Shown here piece by piece: positions 5,691-50,750 of a stretch of 64,000 nt of DNA. The stretch is from Aldrovandia affinis (Eukaryota > Chordata > Actinopteri > Notacanthiformes > Halosauridae): contig JAINUG010000039.1 of the NCBI GenBank assembly GCA_029706075.1, forward strand, positions 3,600,001 to 3,664,000, read 5' to 3'. The notes below the pieces were generated by a model. The model had not been told where the DNA came from. It made no database searches and was given only the letters and a program-made list of their open reading frames with translations. The position numbers were made by a program, and so were the translations under genes. The number at the start of each line of letters is the position of its first letter. Position 1 is the first letter of the stretch.

Positions 5691-7935
5691 TGCGCTCTGC
5701 AGGTTTTTTTTCCACGAGAGCTTGGCTGTCACCTATCCTGACAGCTGTTGTGGCCCAGAAGGATGAACAAAGGGCCACAGGAAGTAGCGCATCACTGCCG
5801 ACAGGCTTAAAAGTGCGCCAATCTGTCCCTCCCTGGACTAATGCCTTCTGATTTACCGCCAGTCTCTCTCTCTCCGAGCCCGACGGGACCATATGAGGCG
5901 CGGGCCTTCAGATGCCATTTCTGAGCAGCAAGGCCAGGGAGGAGTCACAAGGAGAGACAGGAAATGATTTCAAATCGCTCGACAAATTGTGCCGCAAAGA
6001 CGTTATAACAAACCTGCTTCGAATGTAACATGTAATATTCACACAGAGGGTGTCAAAAATATTCTTGACATTCTTCCTTGGATGAAAAAAGGACCCCTGT
6101 TGCTGTTTTGGTTTGTTTCCTGTTTTTGTATGAGTTGCCTCATTTTTTTTGTTGTCATTGTTTTTTTGACCCGTGACATGGTCTTTGTCAGTTGGCTCGA
6201 TCAACGCCGTGCCAATTGGACAAACTGTGGCTTGTGTGGTCGTGCCAGCTCTGGACGTCAAAGAGCAAAGGCTCCTGACTCCAAAGTCTAAATATGGTGC
6301 TGTTCCCAGGTCATCACATTCAAATGACCTGGCAAAAGGCCTTGGATATCTCACAATCAATTCCCCTCATGCAGGGAGCGTAGAAATCCATTCGGATTAG
6401 GCAACTTTGCCCAGAAAGATGGGCAGAGCTTTCTAAAAAGGCTGGTCTTACCACCGGAGATGTCTGTTCATATGTTAGGCTAAACCTGTTAGCGGACGGT
6501 CTTCAGCAGAACTAATACCACTCAGAAAAATAAAATTGCCTTTTCAAGACTTACATCTTTGACATATATTTTATGTAGTACATTCCCGACAGAGAAAAAA
6601 AAGAAGTAAATTCACAAACAAAAAGAAAATAAAGGGAAATATATATTTTCAAGTGGAACCTTGACTTAAAAATGACTTTCATTCATAATAGTATATCCAT
6701 AATAAAATAATATACTTTGTGATCTTGGGAAAGGTAAATGAGTGTTTGGTGGAAAGTTAATAGATGTCAATTTATTTATGAGTTGAATTCAATTTAAAAT
6801 TCTATAAAATTCTGCAAATTCAATTCAATTATTATGTTATTCCTTCAAACCCCATTTTACCAGACATTTGTCTGGAATTAAACAGTGTAGGTAACAAAAC
6901 AGAAGATAACATTTGCATTTGCAACAATAATATGGCAATCATTTAACTCAATGCTTCGTTTTTACTGCCTATATAGGCTGATTGTGCATATGTGTGTGTG
7001 TTTGTGCATGTGTGTGTGTGTATGTGTGTGTGTTTTCAGAACCAAATCTGATTGAGTTTTCCGGTAACCAGATACTGTAAATATCCTGTTAGCGTTTTCT
7101 ACAATTACCATGACAGATTGAACAATACCCAAATATTAGACTTAAACAGAATATAAATGCATTATAATAAGACAACAGGTTTATTAAGGTCACACTATAG
7201 TTGAAGCGCAGCATAACAAGTTACATTTCCATAATGATTATCATAAGAATTGTGGCATTATGAACATAATTAATATGGCAAATACTGTCTATCGTGGAGC
7301 AAGTCCATTTCAAAAGAGAATATTATCGAAAAACACGAGCACAGTGACATACTGGTGTGTTAGCCTGGAATATTTTTTTTAAAAGAGCGTTAGATGGATG
7401 TTTTTAACAACTCTAAACAACTGTTAGCGAGGAGTCTGGTGCAATATTTATGGCTGGCACACGTCTCACAAGCAGGAATCCCGACGCCGTGGTTAGTGAA
7501 GGAGAAAAGGAGAGGAAGGAGCGTACGGGAGAGCGCAGGCACCTTTCCCCCCGCGCGCACTGTTTTTCTATCACACTGTTTTTCTATTTGTCCCGCGCTG
7601 TGTGGCACCCACGGTGTGTGTAATGAGCAAGGGCCATGACCAGCTGGAACGATTCAGACAGGAATAGAAATAGGGAGTAAGAGCGCTGATCCAGGATCAG
7701 CTTTCCCCTGTTCCGTGTCCTGTCCTTATGAAAAACGCCACAGAAGAGGACCGCTTTGAAACCGCGGGGCCGAGTTATGTGAACGTTATGATATGTTTCT
7801 GTAAACACGTTGGTGGATGTTTAGTGGTGACCTGGCAGCATTTTGATATCATTAATTTGGTACATAGACTGATTTTAGGAATTGTGTTTTACAGATGTAT
7901 AGAGAGTATGCACTTTGCATATGTGAGTAAGCTTT
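5691..7935. other. Gene-free sequence with short TG runs
   Basis: No gene is seen. There is a small TG tract near 6990-7035 and AT-rich sequence around 6540-6960. Confidence 0.45.
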
Positions 7936-7939
7936 TTTT

Positions 7940-9460
7940 AGCATAGCCCACGTTAGAGGCCATGACGTGGGCAGGTGATCCGCTCCCTCCTGATGCTGAG
8001 GTCTGAGGTTCGAACCCCGGCCTTTCCATTCTATTTATTTTGCATTTATGGGGTCTCGTGTTAAGTTTGTGAACAGGACAAGCGAGAGAGTGGAGGAAGT
8101 CGTAGCACAACCGAATGAACTTTGTCTCCCGGCGCTCAGGTCCAAGGTTTGAGCCCTGGACCCTGTTTCTCTTGTGTTTATGAGGTCTCGTCTTGAGTTA
8201 ACTACAGGACAAAGAATCACAAAGTGGAACCTCCACGATGGAATGAACCTTGTCTCCCAACATGAATGTCCAGGGGTTTAATCCTGAGCTCTTTCACTCT
8301 TTTTCTCTTGTGTTTATGAGGTCTCTCCTAACTTCCCTATTGGACATATCAAGGAGCGGAGGAGGCCATGGTATGGGTTAATGATCACCCCCCACCTAAC
8401 ACTGAGGTCTGGGGTTTGAGCCTTGACCAGCTGCTTTCTTCCACAAAGCGTTGCTTTTACTTCGCTATGAGACATCAGGAAGAGCGGAGAAGGCCGTGGC
8501 GTGGGGAATGATGGTCGACTTCCTATGCAGATATCCGGGGTTTGAGATCCTTTCAAAATCTTTTGATTATGAGGTCTCACTTAAGCTCACCACAGGACCA
8601 GGAAGACAGTGTAGTAGTCCAGCATTCAACCCCTTGCTTGTCAGTTCTCTGTTTCTTTTGCTTTCAGTCTTGCCTTTAACTTTAGCTGTAAGACTTTGAA
8701 AAGACTGGAGAACGCTGTGGCGCAGGAGAATGATTGCAGACCCATGGTGAATAGGCTCAGGTCTCAGTTCCCTCCTCTTCTATTCTGTTTCTCTTGCATT
8801 CACATGCCTTAACTTTGCTAAAATATATTGAGAAGAGTGGAGAAAGCCATGGTGGGGGAGAATGTTCACCGTTTCCCAATGCAGAGGTTTGGCTTTTGAG
8901 CCCTGACTATTCAATTCTGTTGTTCTTGTGTTCGTGAGGTCTCCCCTTAACTTCACTATAAGATGTATGGAAGAGTGGAGTGGAGAAGAGTTGTGCCCCA
9001 GGACACTGACTCCTGATGTAGGGGTCCAAAAGTTCAATCTCAGGCTCTTCCCTTGTGTTTCTCTTGCATTTATGGGGTCTCTTATTATGAAGTTCACTAC
9101 AGGACTAAAAACAGCTCAGGGGAAGCTGTGACACGATGGAATGAACCCAACGTGGAGATCGGGGGTTCGATCCCCGGCTCTTCAACTCTCTTCCTATTGC
9201 ATTTATAAGATCTCTTAATGTTGAAGGCCATGGCATGAACAAATCGCCACCCCGTCTCAGTACTGGGGCTCCAGCATCAGCTGGTTTCTCTCGCGTTCAC
9301 AAGGTCTCACCTTAGCTTTGCCTTAAGACATCGACAAGAGCCAAGAAGGCTGTGGTGCGAGAGGGTGAATGATAACTATGGACGCAGATGACTGGGCTTT
9401 GATTCCCGGCTTGTTGGTTCTCTTGGTTGGTTTTTCTTGAGTTCATATAAATTGGTATAT
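7940..9460 (+). repeat. Tandem array of about 12 diverged tRNA-like units (period about 126-139 bp)
   Basis: Head-to-tail degenerate copies share a plan: a GGTCTC-type start (clear at 8049, 8187 and 8319), a GGACA..GAAGAGTGGAGAA stretch, an A-box-like TGGCGYRG-GGAATGA, then 40-50 nt later a B-box-like GGTTYGANCC, then a pyrimidine stretch with TTTCTCTTGYGTTTATG. B-box-like sites lie near 8007, 8146, 8275, 8413, 8539, 8622 (poor), 8761 (poor), 8892, 9031, 9164, 9261 (poor) and 9395. The sites at 8007 (GGTTCGAACCC) and 9164 (GGTTCGATCCC) match the Pol III B box. All units point the same way and none carries the LINE-type tail of the SINEs elsewhere. Units differ enough that the array looks old. 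They are not functional tRNA genes, because no cloverleaf with paired acceptor ends is seen. Confidence 0.75.
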
Positions 9461-20457: not shown

Positions 20458-23400
20458 CTGAGGGGAAAGATAAAGTCAATACTAAACCCCCGCTCGTCTA
20501 CAGCGGAGGATTAGTAAGTTATAGTGCAAAAACGTATTTAATAATAAAAAAACATTTTTATAATTTTTCCAGAAAAACTTGAAATATTTTTATAAATATA
20601 TATATATATTTCAATATAACTCTGACCCTCTTCACAAAAGATTTCCAGGTCGTCCACATGAATTCAGTTAAATATAGCAGAAGAGAAAAGATAACACTTT
20701 GAAGGTAGAGACTAAAAGTCAATGACAGATTCTAAATATATACCAAAAGGAATGCGTCATAAGACACCTCCTCCTATCAAAGGACATGTATTAATATTTG
20801 TTCTTTCTGTTAAATTACTAATATTTAAGAGACACATTTTCTCAAGTATAATAAACTGCTAACATAATTGCAAAAATGTAAATGGAGACGTGTCATCTCA
20901 TAACAAGGGCACAACGCCTGCACCTTGGAAAACATGAAGCCTGGAATTCTTAAATGTTTCTACTGAACCGACTTCTTGTATTGGCAAGAATCTGGCTCTT
21001 TGCATGTCTGCAGTGCATCACGAAAACCAGGAAAGAAAGCCTTCCCTGCCCAGCCAGTGTTCCCTTGCAATCTCTTGAGACACGGGCCAAATAATAATTA
21101 AAAATACTTCAACCCTTTAGATACCAGGAAATATTCCTGCAGATTACTGACAACACCGGTTTTCACCAAATATTCATAACGCGGTTCTCCTTTCATACGA
21201 TTGGGCGTTTTGGTTATATCTGCGTTTCGTAGAAAATTCTCAGGGATCCACAGGAGTGTTTTCAAATTTGAACCGCCGTCTAAAAGAGTCAAAGTGACTT
21301 TTCGAAGTCTGAATCTTGTAGCAACGCATGATATCATGACAAATTTATGCACGCTCTTCACACCGGTGAGGCCTCGTCAGCTCATTCGCTATGATACCTT
21401 GTTACGGACCCAGCTGCGAATCGGAGACTTATCGTGCGGCTCCCGGCCACCCCCCCCGCTGCGTCTGACCAATGAAGCGGAAGGACACCTGGGGATACCG
21501 GCGCACTGAGCATGTGCAGCTCGGACGGCAGCAGGGCACCAGAAAACAGCCCTCCTGTCAAAACCTTCCACATCACTCCGCTTTTTAACACGCCAGCAGG
21601 CATCTGAGCAGGATTTACTTCTGATGCACGGAATTCAGATTTGCCCTTCTTGTTTCTTTAACTTTTTTTCAGACAGGCATTGTATTGCTCGCCTTGGTGA
21701 CCTTTAGGTAAGATGGTATATAGAGACTATACATTAATATCTATTAGCCGAATGACTAGTTCAGTTTTTTATTATTTTTTTGTTTTAGTTTTTGGTTCAG
21801 CCCTTATTCAAACTCTCTGCGTGTGAATCAGGTTCGGAAACGCAACAGAAATATCTATTAGGTCGAGTTGTGTCAGATACGAATCGATGTGAACACATGA
21901 CTGACACCACAGTCTAAATTTGGACATTGGGCAGTGTTCACTCAAATGACACAGATGGCCACTGAACGTCTGTCCCTCTTAAAAGCAAGTCTCAGGGAAC
22001 ATTTCGGTGGAACAACAGTTTGAGTAAATTCCATAGAAGGGGGAATCATGTGACCTGCTGGTAAACGTGGCAACTTAAGGCCTGTTACACTCCAGAAGAT
22101 TACTACTACTGTTCTACCACTTTCCATCAATGGATTGAAGAAAAAAATTATTAGTATTACTTGTAAGAAGTTTGAAGTGAAGAGAAGGGAGTTTCTGCAA
22201 GGACCAGGGAGTTTCAGGATGAAGAACATTTAACATTTTTACATTTTAAGCATTTAACAGAAGAACATCCATTACATTACATTACATTACAGGCATTTAG
22301 CAGACTCTTATCCCAGAGTTTACATTTTTTTTACATTTCTTTACAATCCATTTATACAGCTGGATATTTACTGAAGCAATTCAGGTTAAGTACCTTGCTC
22401 AAGGGTACAACAGCAGTGCCACCTGGGGATTGAACCTGCAACCTCTGAGTTACAAGCCCAGCTCCCTAACCATTATACCACACTGCCGCCTTGAACATGA
22501 AATATGAACACCATATGCACAGGCTTTCATTTGAGCTATACAGTTAAAGTCCATGCTAAATATTTTCTAATGCTAACTTAAATCACATAAATGCAATACT
22601 ATTTCCAAGATCTATTTGAGGTCGTTAATACAACAAGTATACAACCTGCTGCACTGGGGATAATAGTCGCTCTAGATAAGAGCGTCTGCTAAATGCCTAA
22701 AATGTTAGTGTAAATGTAATGTAATCCTTTATGGATTATTATCACCGTCTCTTTTTGTTTTGAAATTGTACACGGTCATATTTTATTAAGGCTACAGGGT
22801 AAGGTGACTTTTATTGCTTCTTTTGGGAAGTTAAGAGTCAGATTTCTTGCTTGCACATAATTTGGGTTATTGACCTGAAATGTCCCTCAAAGCATTGTAT
22901 TTTAGACATGGTCCACGGAAAGGGCAAATTAGATAATTTCCTCTTCTTAAAATTGGAATGCGTAATATGAATCACCTGAAAATAGCAACACTTGTTCCAG
23001 CAGTGTTTTCCAGCTGCTGTTATGTGTCAAAATAAAATAAATACAAACACACGCGGGGAGGCAGCGACTTATCCCACATCAGGGCCAAACGTGAGAATTT
23101 TCTCAACTCAGCTTAAAACGCGAAAGTGCAATATTAATTCCCTTAAAATGACAAAAGAAAAAAAATCTTGGATTCTTGCAGTGTTCAAAGCTGTCGTCCA
23201 GCTGTGGCCGCGTGTGAGAATTACTTCGGCGAAATAAATACAATCGGGGGAACCTGGGATTGCCACAGTTAATTAAGGGCCCAAAGAGCAGAGCTGCTGA
23301 CAGAGAGCAGAGAGCAGACGGGCGGAGTCAGTGACCCAGCAACGACCAGCCGTCTGCGCGCTGTTCCCTCACTGCACATCGGCCAAACAACAGGAAATGG

Positions 23401-26400
23401 ATTTGGGGGGCTTTCTCCCCCGTTTCGCACTTTCTCACTTCATTTAACTGGATTAACGAGCAGGTCCGAGCGGGCTTTGCGTAACGTCCCGTGCGGCGCC
23501 CCGGGCCCGCGTACGTGGGACACTGCCCTAAAGTGAGGAAGGACCGCAGGAAGTTGAGGATAAAGACGAAACTCAACTCACCTGTGAAGAGGAAGAAGAT
23601 CAAAGCCATGATCATCGTGTAACCGAAGTAGAGGATGGTGCTGGCCAGTCCGGTGATCTGGAGCTTGGAGAAGAAGTAGTGCACGGCGTAGACCAGGAAG
23701 TACACAGCGGTGAAGCCGCTGGTCAGGAACGAGCGCCACTGCCAGTGGTAGTCCTGGTGGAGGAAACCCACAAGACACTTTCACACTCACGCATAACAGC
23801 AACGTTGGCCGTGCCGGTTTATATGCTTTACAAGTTTAGGGACGCTTAAACACCTCAGAAATTAAAATATATATATATCACTATAGATCTGTCTAGTTGT
23901 AATTTATTTATTTAATTTAATCTGAAATAATACACCTGGAGAGCATTTCATAAAGCAGGATTATAGAGTTTGCTGGCTAAATTTTGTAAATGTTCTGAAT
24001 AGGGTGAAATTCAGTTTTTCCAAAATATTAACAAAAGTTAGTCGGCTATGTGAAGTAACCCCCCCCACCGTTCCTGTCTTGACTGGACTGGATTATACAG
24101 GTAATAACTAATAAAATTACAGTAATGTCGCACATCTTCTCAGTATCTCTCTCCAGAGTTCTATTCACTGATCTCACGGTCAGTGGGACTGTCCCATTGG
24201 TCAGGCTCACCTCTGCGCACAGGTGGAAGTAGCACAGGAGGATGGTAGCCTCGGAACAGGTGATCACCAGGATGATGAACACCAGGAACAGAAATCCAAA
24301 CATGTAGTACATTTGATGAGACCTGGAGTGGTAGGGGGAAGGGGAACAAACAAAACCATTCATTATAAAATCATTAACTACCATTTTAATTAACGTGTAA
24401 TAATTGTAGAGCCTTTTTTGACAATGAGCCACTTAACTATACACTTTATAATGAATTCAAGTTCGTTCCACACTAGGGGACCCACTGCTACTTTTGGCAG
24501 TATTAATTTATCAGGTATTTAGGATATACAATTATATAAGAACCATGCGATTTTTATAAGCACATTCATAGAATAAGCAGCATGAGTATATTTATACTAC
24601 CTACTTGCCTCCTAATCACAGTATAACTATGGGCTACTTTGTTGCTTGGAGACCAGCAACAATTGTAGGCTAGCAGATTAACACACTTCTCATGTCTGAT
24701 CTGGGGTGACAAGCACATAGGGGGTGGGGTGATCTGTAGCCTTTCTTTGACCTTATCAGTACAATAGATCAGATGAGAAAAACAACGGCAACAAGATGGA
24801 TGTCATCGCAAATCCTAACACTATCTTCGGCTATCTGGGCACATTGCGCATTTGCACCGAATTAAAATGGAGAGACCAAGAATTTGGATGAAAATATTAG
24901 TCAAACAGGACAACACTACGAATGTGAGAAACCATCCACGGATCAATCGCAGGTCTTCTCAGCTGGTGAGTTGCTTGGTTGCACCAGAAATGTACCAACA
25001 AAAAATAGTCTTAAGGTGGAATAGACACTAAATGAATAGGTTTAGTATGAATGTAAAGAAGAACCTGATGGGTGCGATCTCTTGTCTGAATATGAGCAAC
25101 CAGCGCAAGAAAAAACCTTTTTTTTTGGGGACGATTTGATCACCGGCTGCGGTTATTCGCGTGACAAATGACTGCCAAAGACAATTTCATGACCGCCACA
25201 GCCCTAGACCAAAAGCTATTTAAATTAATTCTTAACACAAGCAAAGAGTGTCGGGGAGATTAGCCAGTGTGACTGCAGAATGAGTGGTCTTTAAACCAGA
25301 GCGTAATGTCAAGGTTCCCACTCAAGTCAGATTGACATTTTCCATGTATTTTCAATTATATTTTAAAAATAACTGGATTCAATGATTTTTGTGTGTGCAA
25401 TAGTCTTAGGGCATAGTAGTTTTAGGGATACTTTTGTGAAGTGGACAGACATTTTGAGGTACATTACTCAAACATTACCCAGACGCTGCATTGTGTCTCA
25501 AGTGACCAATACATTTTGCACATGGAATTAATGCACAAACCAGCAGTCAGCACCCTTAACCCTTAGGAGTCGCCGATCACGCCGGCGTGATCAAATCAGT
25601 AACTGGTTCAAGACGCCATAGCTTTAAAACGAAGTCACTTTGAGCATTGCCGTCAACTTCACTCGAAAGTGCTGGCTTGAAACCCCATGCTAGTTTTTTG
25701 AATGACGTTGAAAGACCAAGTAAAAATGGGAGATATTATCATTTTAATTTGACATAAAAATTATATTTACACGTGCGTAAAAGCGCATACAGTATGTGAG
25801 GCAGGCGTCGCATTTGTTTGAATATCTTTTTTGTCATATTATGAAATGGAAAAAATGCCTAGCTAGTTTTCGGAGTTGGAGTTGGAGTTTTTGTGGAGGA
25901 GAAATGAGGCGAGTTGAGCCTCGTGTGAGGCGAATGCTAAATGTACCACAAACCTTGCTTTTGTACGTCGAGGATGACGAACTTGAATAAATTATACAGG
26001 TATAATGTCTGACATCGAGGGTTAATAAATTCAAGTCAAGTTGAACATCAAGCAAGACTTGATAGTAAGTGACACCAACCTACTAATTTAACAAGCATTT
26101 CCTCACTGTATAAGTCCCCCCCATTTTGGGCTGTTTTCCCTGACTTTTCAGGGACAATGGGATATTTGATTACTGTCCATGACTTTCCAGGATGCAAAAA
26201 TATTCAAGGGGTGTGGGAACCCTGTAGAGCCAGACTCCACGCCCCGGTCAGCCACTGACCAGATGCTGTTGAGGATGAAGAAGAGCTGGATGAAGATGCA
26301 GCCGAAGGGCAGGATTCCACCCATGATGATCCCGGGGAGGGGCTTGGTGTAGAAAGACTGTTCCGGAATCTGCCGTGGGATCTGGTTGGTGCGGACCGGG

Positions 26401-32400: not shown

Positions 32401-35400
32401 GCACTTGAAAGGTCACTGGAGATGTGTGTGCCTGGGGAGGTTCCAGGGGAACTCCAGAGGAAGAGGCACGGTGTCCTGTAAGTTATAATTATTTTAGTTT
32501 GTTGTTTTTACCCGAAAGCTTCGCGGCGAGTAGAGTGAAGATTTTGTGTCTGTGTTTGTGTTTGTCTTTGTTATATGTTAACCTGCTACTCCCACTGTAT
32601 TTAGGGAAAAATAAATAAAATCCGGTCCGCAGACCGACAAACTCCACTCCGTGTCTCATGGCTGCTCTGTTTCCCATCCAGGGTCTGTCACGTGGCGTGT
32701 GACAATTTTCTAAAAACATTATTGACGTATTACTTGTTAAAGTGGAGTGCGACCAACTTCCCTTCGCTATAAGAAATGGTCCAAGATACATTTTATGTCC
32801 GTAGTTACACACACAGCATCGCGCAGTGAATCTGCACACATTGAGGTCGGCAAGGGGAAACAACGTCGTTGTGCAACGGCAACAGACAAGGGAGCGGCCG
32901 CGGTATGCGAAGCAAGCACATTTGTACAAGATTGCAAAAGAGCCAACGTGCATAATCTTCGCTGAATATCACAGAACTAAATCACAGAATTAAAACTGAT
33001 TCGTTTTTGTAAAATGGCCAACAGAGAGACTAAATGAACCGACTTACTATGAACTCCACAGAATAGGTGTAGGGAATTTTGAGCTCGCCAGAGAACTTGT
33101 TGCTCAGGTCCATTGGGGCTCCTGTGCAGTCCGGACTGTCAACCTTCGTATGCTTGAAGCTTTGCGAGGGAAGAAAAAGAAAAACTTGGATTCACGTATA
33201 AATATTAATTCAACACAATGGCCATCTTGGGGTGATGATGTATTTATATTCAGAATGTTCGCATACATTAACGAATGAATGCTTCAATGAATGCATAGAG
33301 GACCACAGTGGAAATAGGTCATTGACTTTTCAGTGTTGTTGTCCTCAATCGCTACATAACGTATGTTCTGTGGCTCCATTTCCATATGGGGGCTGTAGGT
33401 ATGTGTGTTCTTATGCCTAAAACCCTAAACATAAATAAATAGGCTTACAATCACACGAGGATGGCATATGTTCAGTTTATGAACGTACCTTTTGGGTTCA
33501 ATTTTAGCGGCAACCAATCTTGCTCCAGCGGCTTCATTCTCCACCACGTGGTAAAAGATCGTGATGTCAACGTGGTTGAAGATGTAGAAAGTGTCTTTGT
33601 CATTGAAATCAGACTGTTGAGGCCAAAAACGTTACAATTACTCAATTACCACCTCATGCATACCAGTGTAATTTAGATCCCAAATTAGACAAAGGATGTG
33701 GAGATTGTACGTCTTAAGTAGACTACATTTCACTGGAACAGGTCATTTAATTTAATCGCATTACCGATAAGGGATGCCTCACTTGTTCTGTTCTCCAGTA
33801 TAATTATTTCCACAAAATTACAATCACTTTACTTTACAGGGAACCGTTGATTGAATCCAACCCAAAAAGGCGAATCAAACATATGTAACTTTTCAACTGT
33901 AACTTTTTTTTAAATCAACATTCTGAGTGACATTCCTTAAGGCAATCAGTATTCTTTCCCCCCATTTAGCCATATTAATAATGATCCATCCGTAAGAGGC
34001 GTTTCGTGCAAAACTGACATTGACAACGCAGGCGTCTTTGGGTCGTCCTGCCTCGGTCACGTAACATCCGATGGGAAACCCAGGATTGCAGAACTTCTGC
34101 CCGTCCTCCACGTCGTAGCACCAGGTCACTGGCATGTTGTCCACAATCCTGCAGAGAGAGTCCGTTATTATCACCAAGGGAGTCGAACCCGCATTCTTCG
34201 CAAACACTTGGAAAGACTCTTGTGGTACAACAGAGATCTCATCCTGATTCTAGGACAGGGTGGGATATATGCCACTTAGCAGATGCTTTTATCCAAAGCG
34301 ACTTACCTTACAGTAGTGAATGCACACATTTTTCAGTATATGTGGTCCCAGTGGGAATTGAACCCACAACCTAAGTGTTGTCAGCGCCGTGCTCTACCTA
34401 CTGAGCCACACAGAACCGTAACTCTGTTCCTGGAGGATCAGTGTTTGTGCAGGTTTTTCTTTCCGCCAATTCGCTGATTAGCTGTACGCACTACTGCCGG
34501 TTCAGCGAAATACATCCGTTTCATGTAGAGATACAAGAGCCTTCAGCTGGCAAACGTGAGCTTATCAAGAGATTTAAGATGTAAGATAACATAAATGAGA
34601 ATTAAATCATTAAGAGCAGAAGTTGGCATGAAATCCAGAAACATACATGACCATCCTTGCCCAGCCCTGACCTAGGAGATGATGTCATCGACCGTAGCAG
34701 ACAGATGCACACGCCTCCTCCAGTATTGCTGATGTAACGTTCGAGGCCATTTCAAGGACCCCGAGAACATTTGTATTGAAAAACCTTGCTTTATGAAAGA
34801 GTGTTATATAAAACTCCTACAACGGGAAGTCAGGCACATTCCAGCAGTCGTGACAAGAGAAACAAGAGAAAGACTGTAAGAGTGCTTCTTCGCTTTTTTT
34901 TTTTCTTGAAAAAAACGATCAAAAAGTTTGCAGCAGAAAAGGGTGCTCTTTGGAACAAGGGTCTTTAAAGTGTTGAAGAAGAATGACCGGACACAAGGTT
35001 AAAAAAAGGCAAGGCGCTTCTTTTGAAAAAATAGAGCCTTTATTCTCAAAGCATTTCAGCACTTGCCTTCATCGGGGTGTGACCAGGCACGACACTTCAA
35101 CAAGCTGAAGACCCATTTCATCTCATCCTGAGCTCCTCTCTCAACGGGAGGGGGGGGGTTACATCACCCCCTGTTTACAGACTCGCACACACCCTGCTTT
35201 AGCAACGGGCGGTATGTGGCAGATGCCAAGGAAAACCCAGGCGGTGTGAAGGCAGTGACGGCTCAAAATGAATGTGCCGACATGTGTCTCGCAACCGGCG
35301 AACGGGCTGTCAACACTTAGACGTGGCCTTGCAGATCAGGGTAGAGGAAATAATATGCCTCCTTGGTAAGTCAGCGTAAACGGATCCCTATTGTAGAGAA

Positions 35401-38400
35401 TGTTATATTCATTACATTGTGTTACATTAATTTAACACACACTCCTATCCAGAGCAGCTTACAGTGGGAAAGAAAGTGTATCCACATCAATTACATGAAC
35501 CAGGCTACACACGAAACACTTTTAGACCAGACACACATGCGACATTGTCCAAGTACTAATGTAGGTGCAGTGTATATGTGTGCACACACACATTCTCTCT
35601 CACACACACACACACACACACAACATGGACACACACATAGATGCACCCTGACATATACAGACACTTGCGGAAAACATATATTGACACCCAGGCCCTCAGC
35701 CTGTCAGACACTACAGCCAGGACCCCAAGACATACACAATAAGCCAAATGTGGCAGGGCAGAAGGCCAGAGTGTGGCTCAACTGCATGAAGCCAGCTATC
35801 TGCGGTAACCCCGGGAGACCAACCCTCACCAACCCGTGAGACACAACTAAAAGGCCCAAATCTGTGCTAACTCGCAGCCAAGACCCAGATACCATCCTGA
35901 CAAGGTTTCAACCAACTGGACCACCCTCATGCTCGAACCTGCAGCAGCACAGGGAGGTGCCTCCAGTCTCACTCCCGCCCACATGGATTCCTATAAAGCG
36001 CTGTTGAAAATAGTTTACGACCACAATAAATGGCTACTCTTTAGGCTAGGACACAGGAATTGTTGGGAGTTTTATGATTCAGAGTAGTAGTATTTGAGTG
36101 ATGATCTGTGAAAACATACAGATGACACAACATCTATGCCTAGAACAGAGCTCACAGGACAGGTGAGGTGTGTGGGAAGGGATTGTCAAAGGCACTATGA
36201 ATCTAGGTGACCTATCATTATATCTAAAATAATGGATGTTTCTAACACTTTGGTAGTGATCTCCACTATCTATTCTAATTGTGACAGAACTCATTGGTGT
36301 GAGTATACCATGTCTCCATGAGGCCAGAGTCTTTTACAGAAAGGTCCACCACATTGCCACGCCCACAGCATGCAATGGGTCCTTCTGGAAGGGAATGCAA
36401 GCCCGTAAGCCCGCCCACCCGCCTGCCTGCCTGCCTGCCCTTACAATCACACCTTGCCCCAGCTTTCTTCAACTGTTGCACGCCCCCTAGTGGAAAATCT
36501 CAGAATCAGGGGTCTGACTGAAAGCCCACTTCAGAAACCCCAATTGCACAAACAAGAAACCTTGCTCTTAAAACATCATCACGTGAAAATGCATGTCCTT
36601 GCCCAGCACACTTTTATATCTTTAAATTCCTGACACAAAGTGGGTAGCAGTGTGGAAAGTATGGCAGAGCTGTGGAGTGGTGGTTAGCTCGATAGACTGC
36701 CAAAGAGGGTTGAGTCTCACACATTACATTACAGGCATTTGGCAGACGCTCTTATCCAGAGCGACGTACAACAAAGTGTTAACCGTAGTCAAGAACAGTT
36801 TAGCTGAAAGCCACCCTAGCGGGAAGTACAGTTCCAGGTGCTAGGACCCTGCAGGTAAATCTGTAGCCACAATTCAAAGGCAGCAATAAAACAGAGCGGA
36901 AAATAGACAAAATAATGCCTAAACCTAATCCAGTACATAAACAAGTAGACAAGAGTGCAATACTAAACAGCTACATCCCTAAGCTTACAAAGCCGGACTA
37001 CAGGGAGAGGTGCACCCTGAAGAGGTGAGTCTTCAGTCGTCGCTTGAAGGTGGCCAGGGTCTCAGCTGTTCTGACTTCCACGGGAAGGTCATTCCACCAT
37101 CGTGGAGCCAGAACCGACAGGAACAATGTTCACACCCCAGAACAATGTTCTTTACCTTAGTTGCCCCAGTGAAAAAATCTGCGTTTCGGTTTTTGTTAAG
37201 ACAAAAAAAAGACAAGAATAACAGGAGCTAGCTATGGAACCTAAATGCTATTTTTTTTACATTTGTACACAAAAGGTACTTGGACAGATGCAGACAACGT
37301 GCAAACATTGGAGAGGTGATTTCAAGACGGCAAGAGTTGGCTCAGCTTATTAGCAACGCTGCTGAGACGGCATCTTTCCTCCTTGACAGGTGAGCAAGGC
37401 TGGTGAGCGTTTGCTAGGATAGCCATCATCACTTGTAACAAGCTTACCTCCCAGACAGATACCGAGCAGCCATGCAGTGGCTGATGGGCACACTTGCCAC
37501 AGCCACTCAGGTGTACTTACAGTAGATTGCATGGGTCTGCAAATTAGTGAATGCCTAAATACCAGTAGAGGATATCTAGAATCAAATGCATTTACACATG
37601 AATTTCCTTTCTATAAAAAATACAATCACTTGATATTTGATATCTCGATATTTGGTATTTTGATACTGGATATGTAACTCGATATCATATCAGTTATGAA
37701 CAGTCAACAGGCAACGCGAGACTAAAAACCTACAGGCGCTTGTCACTCGTTCACTAACGCTTCCTCTCGTGCACTGACGTCAAATCGCTTAGTACCGTCA
37801 AAGCATTAGTTGGTCAGAAGTATTAATAGATTCATAGTGTGGCTCTCTGTGGCTCAGTTGGTAGAGCACGGCGTTGGCAACGCTTAGGTTGTGGGTTCAA
37901 TCCCCACCGGGGCCACATATACTGAAAAATGTATGCATTCACTACTTACTGTAAGTCGCTTTGGATAAAAGCGTCTGCTAAATGGCATATATTATTATAT
38001 TATAGTTATAGTCATATAGACCGAGTGTGCAAGTTAATGACGCCACACAAGTACTCACCAATGGTGCTGGTAGTTCAGCAGCATCCCTTTCTTCATGAAA
38101 TCCAGCTTGGCCTTATCGTCCGATTTGTTGGTATTATACGCTTTAGTGCAAACATGTCTGCACTCTTCTTTCTTTTTAAACTCAAACTGCAAAGGTACAG
38201 AACGAAACAGTTCACCTCTGAGCCCTACAACCATCTACGTAGCCACACAGGGTTATCATCTAGTTCGGGGGTGTTCAAACCCAGGCCTCGAGGTCCGCAG
38301 TGTCTGCAGGTATTTGCTCCAACCACGCACTACACCACCTGATTTCGAATAATTTGTTTACCTCCTTGGTCCAAGAAGCAAGCTAATTAGTGAAATCAGG

Positions 38401-45212: not shown

Positions 45213-45576
45213 GTAAGTATCTAAACATATATTTTCAAGATAATTAATTTGTGATTTGACTTTTTACTCTTTCAACTGTTTGGGACAGCTTTCTCCAAAC
45301 AAACAGTGACAATAACCACATCAATGTATGAAACTTATATACAATGCTTATATAATCCATATGGATTATAATTCAATTTCAAGAGTTGAACTTTTTTATG
45401 TTAAATATTTATTTATGTATTTTTACCAAGACAGTCACACATGAATATGATTATTTGAAGTGGTACTTAAAATCTATGATATATTAATACACGTTTCTGA
45501 ATTCCTCCATCATGTCTGCATAAACAGGGATATAGCCTATTACATTATTAGCCTGTGGATTCTTCAAGAGACCAGA

Positions 45577-46578
45577 ATGGATCAGAACACCACCACACCT
45601 AACAACAGCTGCAATGTGTACATCTACAAGGAGACAGCCCAGGTCCTCTTTCCCATATTCTACACCATCATCTTCCTGGTCAGCATCTTCGGCAACAGCC
45701 TGGTGCTGGTCACCTGCCTGAAACAGCAGAAACTCAACTCCACCTCCCTGTACCTGGTCAACCTGGCGTGGTCCGACACCCTATTCTCCCTGGCCCTTCC
45801 AGGCAGGATCGTCTACTACATCCGGGAATTCGACTGGCCCTTCGGGGACTTCCTATGCAGGCTGACCACCGTCATCTTCTACACCAACACCTACACCGGC
45901 ATCGCCTTCATGACCTGCATCAGCCTGGACCGCTACCTGGCCATGGTGCACCCGCACCGCCTGCTCCGGCTCAGGAAGGTGGAGGTGGTGCGGGCGATCT
46001 GCGGCCTGGTGTGGCTGCTGGTGTCCCTCCAGACGGCGCCGCTGCTCTTCAGGAGCATGCTCGGCCACAGCGGCAGCCAGCGCACGTGCATGGAGTACTT
46101 CAGGCTGGAGGGCTCGCCCTCCCTGCCTTACCTGCTCCTCCTGGCCTGCTCCGTCAGCTTCTGCGCCCCCCTGGCGATCATCCTGGGCTGCTACACCCAG
46201 ATCAACCTCAAGCTCTCCAGGGTGGCCAGGAAGAACCCGGTGGCCAGCCGCTCCGGGCGCCACCACAAGGCCAACAGCATCATCCTGCTGGTGCTGCTCA
46301 CGTTCGTGGTGTGCTTCAGCCCCTACCACGTCAACATCATGCAGTTCATGGTCCGCAAGATCCTCCGCGAGCCATCCTGCGAGGAGCTGAAGGCCTTCAA
46401 GATGTCGCTGCAGGTCACCGTCTCCATGATGAACCTCAACTGCTGCCTGGACCCCGTCATTTACTTCTTCGCCATCAAGACCTACAAGCAGAGGGTGATG
46501 AGCCTCTTCAGAGGCCGCCTGTCCTTGTCCGTCCCGTCCTCCAAGACCGCGATCGACAACAGCAGCAGCAACACTTAG
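45577..46578 (+). CDS. gpr183: gpr183, oxysterol-sensing G protein-coupled receptor (EBI2)
   Basis: This single-exon frame encodes a 333-aa class A receptor. In mammals GPR183 is a Gi-coupled plasma-membrane receptor for 7-alpha,25-dihydroxycholesterol that guides B, T and dendritic cells. Seven hydrophobic segments are visible. Hallmarks include Cys94 and Cys171 for the extracellular disulfide, DRY at 118-120, CFSPYH in TM6 and DPVIY in TM7. Residues reported for oxysterol binding in human EBI2 (R87, Y112, Y116, Y260) line up with R77, Y102, Y106 and Y250, and the flanking ALPGRI, FYTNTY and FSPYHV match well. N-glycosylation sequons occur at N4 and N9. I chose ATG 45577 (A at -3, G at +4); the frame stays open 39 codons upstream, but that part probably contains intron. 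In a teleost this could be the a or b copy. Third codon positions are very GC-rich compared with the surroundings. Confidence 0.93.
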   Translation: MDQNTTTPNNSCNVYIYKETAQVLFPIFYTIIFLVSIFGNSLVLVTCLKQQKLNSTSLYLVNLAWSDTLFSLALPGRIVYYIREFDWPFGDFLCRLTTVIFYTNTYTGIAFMTCISLDRYLAMVHPHRLLRLRKVEVVRAICGLVWLLVSLQTAPLLFRSMLGHSGSQRTCMEYFRLEGSPSLPYLLLLACSVSFCAPLAIILGCYTQINLKLSRVARKNPVASRSGRHHKANSIILLVLLTFVVCFSPYHVNIMQFMVRKILREPSCEELKAFKMSLQVTVSMMNLNCCLDPVIYFFAIKTYKQRVMSLFRGRLSLSVPSSKTAIDNSSSNT

Positions 46579-50333: not shown

Positions 50334-50750
50334 AGGGGTGGGCAAGCCCGTTCATGGAGGGCCGGTGTGCAGGCATGTTTTTGTCTCCACCAATGAACAA
50401 ATTAGCTGTATACATTAAAGACAGTAAATGTTCCAAATGGGGACACAAGAATAGTCTTCAGCTGCCATTCATGAGCTTATCAAGAAATGTAGCTAAAATG
50501 TCAGATCTTGTAAATGATGGGCTAATTAAATAATAATAATATACGCCATTTAGCAGACGCTTTTATCCAAAGCGACTTACAGTAGTGAATGCATACATTT
50601 TCAGTATATGTGGCCCCAGTGGGGATTGAACCCACTACCTAAGCATTGCCAATGCTGTGCTCTACCAACTGAGCCACAGAGAACCACATTAAATCATTAA
50701 GAGCAGCAGTTGGTATTCAATTCAGAAACAAACACATCCCGCTTGCCCAT
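50334..50750. mobile_element. hAT-type MITE split by a SINE
   Basis: The left end is CAGGGGTGGGCAAGCCCG. Internal text (CAGCTGCCATTCATGAGCTT, then TTAAATCATTAAGAGCAGC) matches the MITE at 34256-34669. SINE family A interrupts it at 50533-50688. The right end is eroded. Confidence 0.55.
50533..50688 (-). repeat. tRNA-derived SINE, family A (nested)
   Basis: Complete copy on the minus strand: head GGCTCAGTTGGTAGAGCACA, a B-box-like GGTTCAATCCC, and tail TAAGTCGCTTTGGATAAAAG. It is inserted in the middle of a hAT MITE. Confidence 0.85.

Follow-up and report, generated by a model that had tools for sequence, protein, structure and literature searches.

The squamate sSats consist of tandem units with a tRNA-like promoter part, present in few to many units per locus and ending in a longer, fixed terminal unit (PMC10702118). 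Tandem repeats with a tRNA-like part are also described there for amphibians, namely PolIII/TAN in Cynops, Rana/polIII, OAX in Xenopus and Hy/polIII in Hydromantes (PMC10702118; partly PMC9659126). Their units measure about 200-360 nt or longer, Rana/polIII occupies up to 10% of the genome, and in vitro transcription has been reported for PolIII/TAN (PMC10702118). For a fish, Plectorhinchus mediterraneus, another report describes a putative tRNA-derived SINE inside the 5S rDNA spacer (PMC3464664).

Our study focused on a tandem array of tRNA-like units within a window of 64 kb (the whole stretch of DNA that was analysed, G000:C1900:3600001-3664000) from a fish genome of 1.22 Gb. With a probability of about 0.75, we consider this stretch to be an old, decaying array that belongs to a genome-wide tandem family, is built from a tRNA-derived unit and would be without function.

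The array and its surroundings in the window

An iterated profile HMM seeded from sister arrays recovered 12 diverged units, all on the plus strand (Table 1), with E values from 3.1e-29 (best) to 4.7e-7 (worst). About a dozen head-to-tail units running in one direction had been proposed in an earlier note for positions 7940-9460, and both the organisation and the coordinates were confirmed, the latter to within about 20 bp. The profile found no further unit elsewhere in the 64-kb window at E<=1e-3. A window-wide repeat search at E<=1 added six weak matches to the B-box region (best E 0.01), at least five of which sit in or beside the window's SINEs. The 12 units span 89-137 positions of the 140-column model and are 66-72% identical to the consensus, and neighbouring units are 0.62 alike.

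The expected period near 130-139 bp was also recovered when periodicity was measured without any model. At lags of 124-141, segments of 20 nt that matched at 15 or more positions numbered 135 in the 1521-bp stretch, far above the values from 300 dinucleotide shuffles (mean 0.14, maximum 7). The remaining lag signal fell in bands at about 220-270, 340-406, 460-507 and 600-635, which fits two to five units. Tandem Repeats Finder, run on the window, did not report the array, indicating that a profile is needed to detect it. The best gapped self-match in the array joined 8164-8326 with 9056-9215 (units 2-3 with units 9-10, E 2.7e-14), and lag 7 gave the highest likeness of lags 1-7 (0.66 vs 0.57-0.63); together, these suggested traces of an old multi-unit duplication.

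Table 1. Positions of the tandem units and of the adjoining repeat, numbered within the window
Feature	Position	Strand	Basis
Whole array, 12 tRNA-like tandem units	7957..9447	+	profile HMM, self-periodicity
Unit 1; B box GGTTCGAACCC intact at 8007, A box poor	7957..8096	+	profile HMM, box scoring
Unit 2; best A (8103) and B (8146) pair of the array, 43 nt apart	8097..8217	+	profile HMM, box scoring
Unit 3; closest unit is unit 10 (76%)	8239..8364	+	profile HMM, unit comparison
Unit 4	8363..8492	+	profile HMM
Unit 5	8491..8614	+	profile HMM
Unit 6; 5' part missed by profile, no usable B box	8614..8712	+	profile HMM, box scoring
Unit 7; good A box, poor B box	8714..8843	+	profile HMM, box scoring
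Unit 8; top profile score	8844..8980	+	profile HMM
Unit 9; 5' part missed by profile	9004..9117	+	profile HMM
Unit 10; B box GGTTCGATCCC intact at 9164, head gap relative to model	9123..9215	+	profile HMM, box scoring
Unit 11; 5' part missed by profile, no usable B box	9259..9348	+	profile HMM, box scoring
Unit 12; match stops at model position 94 (cut last unit)	9347..9447	+	profile HMM
Separate high-copy dispersed repeat (about 145 bp), abuts 5' end of array, not part of it	7795..7940		genome search

The dispersed repeat that abuts the 5' end had 703 candidate copies in the genome; among the 40 that were scored, most showed 78-87% identity. On the other side, the 800 bp 3' of the array gave no second genome match. 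Elsewhere in the window, an ORF at 23328-23780 on the minus strand matched EMP70 (Pfam); we take the gene to be TM9SF2-like, and the array is situated 3' of it. A second ORF, at 33893-34249, had been taken for the same gene, and Pfam gave no family for it. The ORF at 45571-46575 on the plus strand matched GPR183 (best PDB chain 7tuz, E 1.8e-97).

Sister arrays and the common array end

A search of the same genome for the unit, as the earlier note had proposed, returned sister arrays: at least 65 array matches, the window's own included, on at least 24 contigs, with the best 40 of 73 candidates scored and all genome counts standing as lower bounds. An exact 18-mer of the spacer matched the genome 47 times, compared with 0 for the reversed control. 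Forty-one loci were fetched, and after removal of redundancy, 28 loci and the window provided 362 units and 55 runs of at least three units. Loci L031, L033 and L016, being re-fetches or a duplication twin, were excluded from the unit tree and from the run and strand counts, and L001-L008 overlapped other loci or stayed uncounted. Of 371 units, candidate search patterns matched 83, 109, 138 and 0, and none of these patterns entered the counts. The consensus unit measures about 138 bp (about 135 bp in the window), of which a tRNA-like head and a spacer each take up about 70 bp.

Among runs of at least five units, the likeness of neighbouring units was 0.94 in L037, 0.83-0.89 in L025, L032, L034 and L035 (L025 itself 0.89), 0.78 in L023 and 0.61-0.74 in the others, many of which lay at 0.61-0.66, as does the window. 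This range, which showed no clear tie to array length, indicated arrays of mixed age, with that of the window among the most worn. Likeness also fell with distance, in L037 from 0.94 between direct neighbours (lag 1) to 0.76 at lag 6 and in L025 from 0.89 to 0.64 at lag 7, a trend to which the fixed variants at array ends and, in L025, the presence of two subtypes of unit also contribute. That neighbours are more alike than distant units in young arrays agrees with arrays growing through tandem duplication and unequal exchange, a mechanism that we infer for the family. In a tree of 255 distinct units, seven of the 12 window units had their nearest neighbour inside the window and five had it in other arrays, suggesting that the unit types are partly older than the array.

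Many of the sister arrays end alike at the 3' side, in a variant last unit followed by a more tRNA-like module and then a shared tail. This terminal module was present at 34 of the 55 runs of at least three units. It occurred at 23 of 43 runs where loci had been selected with the unit (a set that contains the window) and at 11 of 12 where they had been selected with the tail; the tail-selected loci were the best-scoring part of 199 candidates. The longer terminal unit at one end is thus common to many loci. Neither module nor tail was found beside unit 12, and the earlier description of the units as tail-less held for the window copy, though not for many of the sister arrays.

Such an end raised the possibility that a dispersed SINE, with the module as its head and with the tail, came first, and that part of it was amplified in tandem, leaving the extended terminal unit behind. 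The head-to-tail organisation of the array is itself a feature of SINE-derived satellites, and an extended last unit that is fixed and followed by a shared tail recalls the squamate sSats (PMC10702118). A hand-composed query of the terminal module found a 23-nt match in the A-box half of four window SINEs, at 96% in two of them and at 87% and 83% in the remaining pair; however, the form of the module used in the genome search matched the window SINEs only at E 0.1-0.36. A UnaL2 LINE end was located 179 bp past the tail of L025 on the same strand, yet among 25 tails in 16 loci (Rfam), this was the only one with UnaL2 within 300 bp, two further tails having it 747 and 970 bp away, so that UnaL2 was not considered part of the shared tail. 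Against a SINE origin, no free SINE copy was found: all 11 tail copies in nine distinct tail-chosen loci directly follow array units, and one lone tail fragment (L015) occurred among 40 tail matches. We regard a SINE-first history as possible, though rather doubtful; because no parent SINE was found, we class the family as a tRNA-like tandem repeat, which may also be a SINE-derived satellite.

Other features invited comparison with a mobile element. L037 (G000:C2533:3005800-3010400), together with L040 and L041, forms a palindrome whose arms measure about 2.4-2.9 kb and share 95-98% identity, and in which the central arrays point outward, and runs of at least two units on both strands occurred in eight of 29 loci (L037, L009, L010, L011, L012, L014, L025 and L028). 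Many young copies have about 650-800 bp in common from the terminal module onward, and some have more. In L021, a pair of direct repeats (1216-1510 and 5916-6184, 72% over 296 columns) flanks a young array. An ORF in L025 ends in what we read as a zinc-knuckle-like motif. These observations would be expected if the arrays were internal parts of a larger element, of foldback type or a non-autonomous LTR element, with the window copy as a remnant. However, the orientation of inverted array pairs varies, what older arrays have in common is limited to the module and part of the tail, and, as stated above, the 3' flank of the window array has no second match. The L025 ORF, a putative gag of an LTR element by its zinc-knuckle-like end, matched no Pfam family at E<=1. 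In 17 other tested loci, no non-minisatellite direct repeat of at least 120 bp flanked an array. A mobile-element source for the arrays therefore appeared unlikely.

Several features of the sister loci are recorded here in their own right. Matches to microRNA families in L037 were discarded, as we read them as a product of the near-perfect hairpin at the palindrome centre. On contig C1844, two young loci (L017 and L018) have a duplicated segment in common. A PRY-SPRY ORF lies at 2181-2786 on the plus strand of L017 (Pfam PRY E 2.9e-25, SPRY 3.2e-10) and a similar ORF was seen by eye in L018, which suggests an expanding immune-type gene cluster near these arrays. A 43-bp minisatellite stands beside arrays in L009 (3346-3560) and L011 (1829-2190), and a 46-bp minisatellite lies near arrays in L016, L020, L026 and L027.

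tRNA likeness, box conservation and function

The exact B-box motif GGTTYGANCC occurred four times in the array, at 8007, 8146, 8413 and 9164, compared with a shuffle mean of 0.03, and the exact A-box motif TGGCGYRG twice, at 8497 and 8718 only (shuffle mean 0.05). The B boxes at 8007 and 9164, previously singled out as near-perfect, both fit the full consensus. An A box 40-50 nt before a B box had been proposed for each unit, and this was borne out for part of the array. A and B pairs separated by 38-60 nt were compared with consensus box sequences, the 99% level of 400 mononucleotide shuffles being a score of 15, and for several window units the scored span was set by hand to reach slightly beyond the profile match. 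Two of the 12 units (8097-8217 and 9118-9225) exceeded the 99% level and three (7957-8096, 8363-8492 and 9347-9460) equalled it, whereas five fell below it and two had no usable B box. The heads of four window SINEs, used as positive controls, scored 18-19 of 19. The A-to-B spacing was 43 nt in most well-kept repeat units and 44 nt in both the terminal module of L037 and the window SINE heads.

What suggests a tRNA origin of the unit is these boxes and their spacing. No tRNA was detected in the array by Rfam, permissive thresholds included, or by ARAGORN, and Rfam found no UnaL2 LINE end at the window array, which, being tandem and without such an end, was rejected as a dispersed tRNA-derived SINE. 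The unit resembled the window's SINEs over no more than about 24-27 nt at the B box, and derivation from one of them is at most a tentative reading. Of the origins offered in the earlier note, an old satellite from a tRNA or SINE head was the best supported, by the A-to-B spacing of 43-44 nt.

The spacing and the one-direction tandem arrangement would also be compatible with a decayed tandem cluster of real tRNA genes. However, 4.6 kb of L037 with well-preserved units gave no Rfam tRNA at E<=10, and ARAGORN, run on 20 fetched loci, returned none except one SINE-type tRNA in L024. Pair counts showed the cloverleaf stems to be inconsistently paired; the T stem reached 0.67 in sister units and 0.81 when slid by one position, so its pairing provided no evidence for structure. 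With the cloverleaf recognised neither by tRNA models nor by stem pairing, tRNA genes were rejected as an identity for the units, and descent from a cluster of them seems quite improbable.

The window units matched the consensus at 54 of 89 A-box positions (0.61), 91 of 130 B-box positions (0.70) and 798 of 1129 remaining positions (0.71), indicating that the boxes were not preferentially kept. The consensus has CA at the B-box CG site, so that CG or TG in the window was scored as a mismatch and lowered the window's B-box value. TG or CA stood at this site in eight of the 12 window units and CG in two, which fits CpG decay. When 123 column windows were ranked by identity, the B box took rank 57 and the A box rank 89 in the window array; in other arrays, the B box came first or second and the A box 45th or 102nd. 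A spacer block at columns 94-107 of the unit model (GAGGTCTCnCCTTAA) was as conserved as the B box across arrays, also ranking first or second.

These rankings suggested that some family copies may be constrained at the B box, or alternatively that the common B-box form, being without CpG, may simply decay more slowly. The window copy shows no B-box constraint. By the same rankings, younger arrays, often inverted or palindromic, could conceivably be kept as dense B-box platforms for putative TFIIIC binding without good A boxes, which we judge highly unlikely. If this were true, TFIIIC binding would organise chromatin or help arrays multiply, and the array in the window would represent a platform that has been retired.

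A possible Pol III terminator, TTTT, was present beyond position 40 in seven of the window's 12 units and in 124 of the 359 units from sister arrays; terminators are therefore not lacking, short transcripts would be compatible with the units, and the case against function is made by the boxes. That the window array is itself functional, bound by TFIIIC or transcribed by Pol III as an insulator or short-RNA source, as the earlier note had offered, is the least probable reading of all: the two B boxes that fit the full consensus and the one unit with a good A and B pair speak for it, but the boxes have decayed as far as the remaining sequence and ten of 12 units lie at or below the 99% level, two of these without a usable B box. 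Nothing that we found indicates that the window copy still does anything, and it probably has no function.

Proposed history and comparison with known repeats

Judged from the sequences compared here, the old, decaying array that we favour could have arisen by the following steps. A tRNA-derived unit would have been duplicated in tandem, and the resulting arrays would have grown while being partly homogenised by unequal exchange. Blocks of these arrays may then have been copied to new places, at least partly via segmental and inverted duplication. The window copy would subsequently have lost homogenisation and drifted.

No tRNA-like tandem array of the same kind in a fish was found in the literature searched, which consisted of titles and the starts of abstracts and left most subscription papers, Repbase and Dfam outside its scope, so that this result is weak evidence of novelty; the fish family is probably an undescribed addition to the tRNA-like tandem repeats. 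The window copy on its own is of little importance. However, arrays of many ages coexist in one genome, which makes it possible to trace how a tRNA-like unit turns into a satellite.

Within the window, the tRNA-headed, UnaL2-ended SINEs (37843-37991 on the plus strand, 50540-50681 on the minus strand, and others) have an A-to-B spacing of tRNA type, as in the family, and differ from the array in being dispersed and in having a LINE-type tail and near-perfect boxes. The case of Plectorhinchus mediterraneus (PMC3464664) is similar in that a tRNA-like sequence lies inside a tandem unit in a fish host; in contrast to our array, what is repeated there is 5S rDNA, with a putative SINE insertion as its tRNA-like part. 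Compared by description, the fish family resembles the amphibian repeats in its tandem organisation, its proposed tRNA-related part and the lack of a confirmed parent SINE, whereas its unit of about 138 bp contrasts with the longer amphibian units. Like the squamate sSats (PMC10702118), the family consists of tandem tRNA-like promoter units at many loci, with a longer fixed terminal unit at one end. Unlike them, it has no identified parent SINE, its unit of about 138 bp carries A-like and B boxes, inverted array pairs are common, and the host is a fish. The family thereby adds a fish-type member to the short list of tRNA-like tandem repeats in amphibians and squamates.
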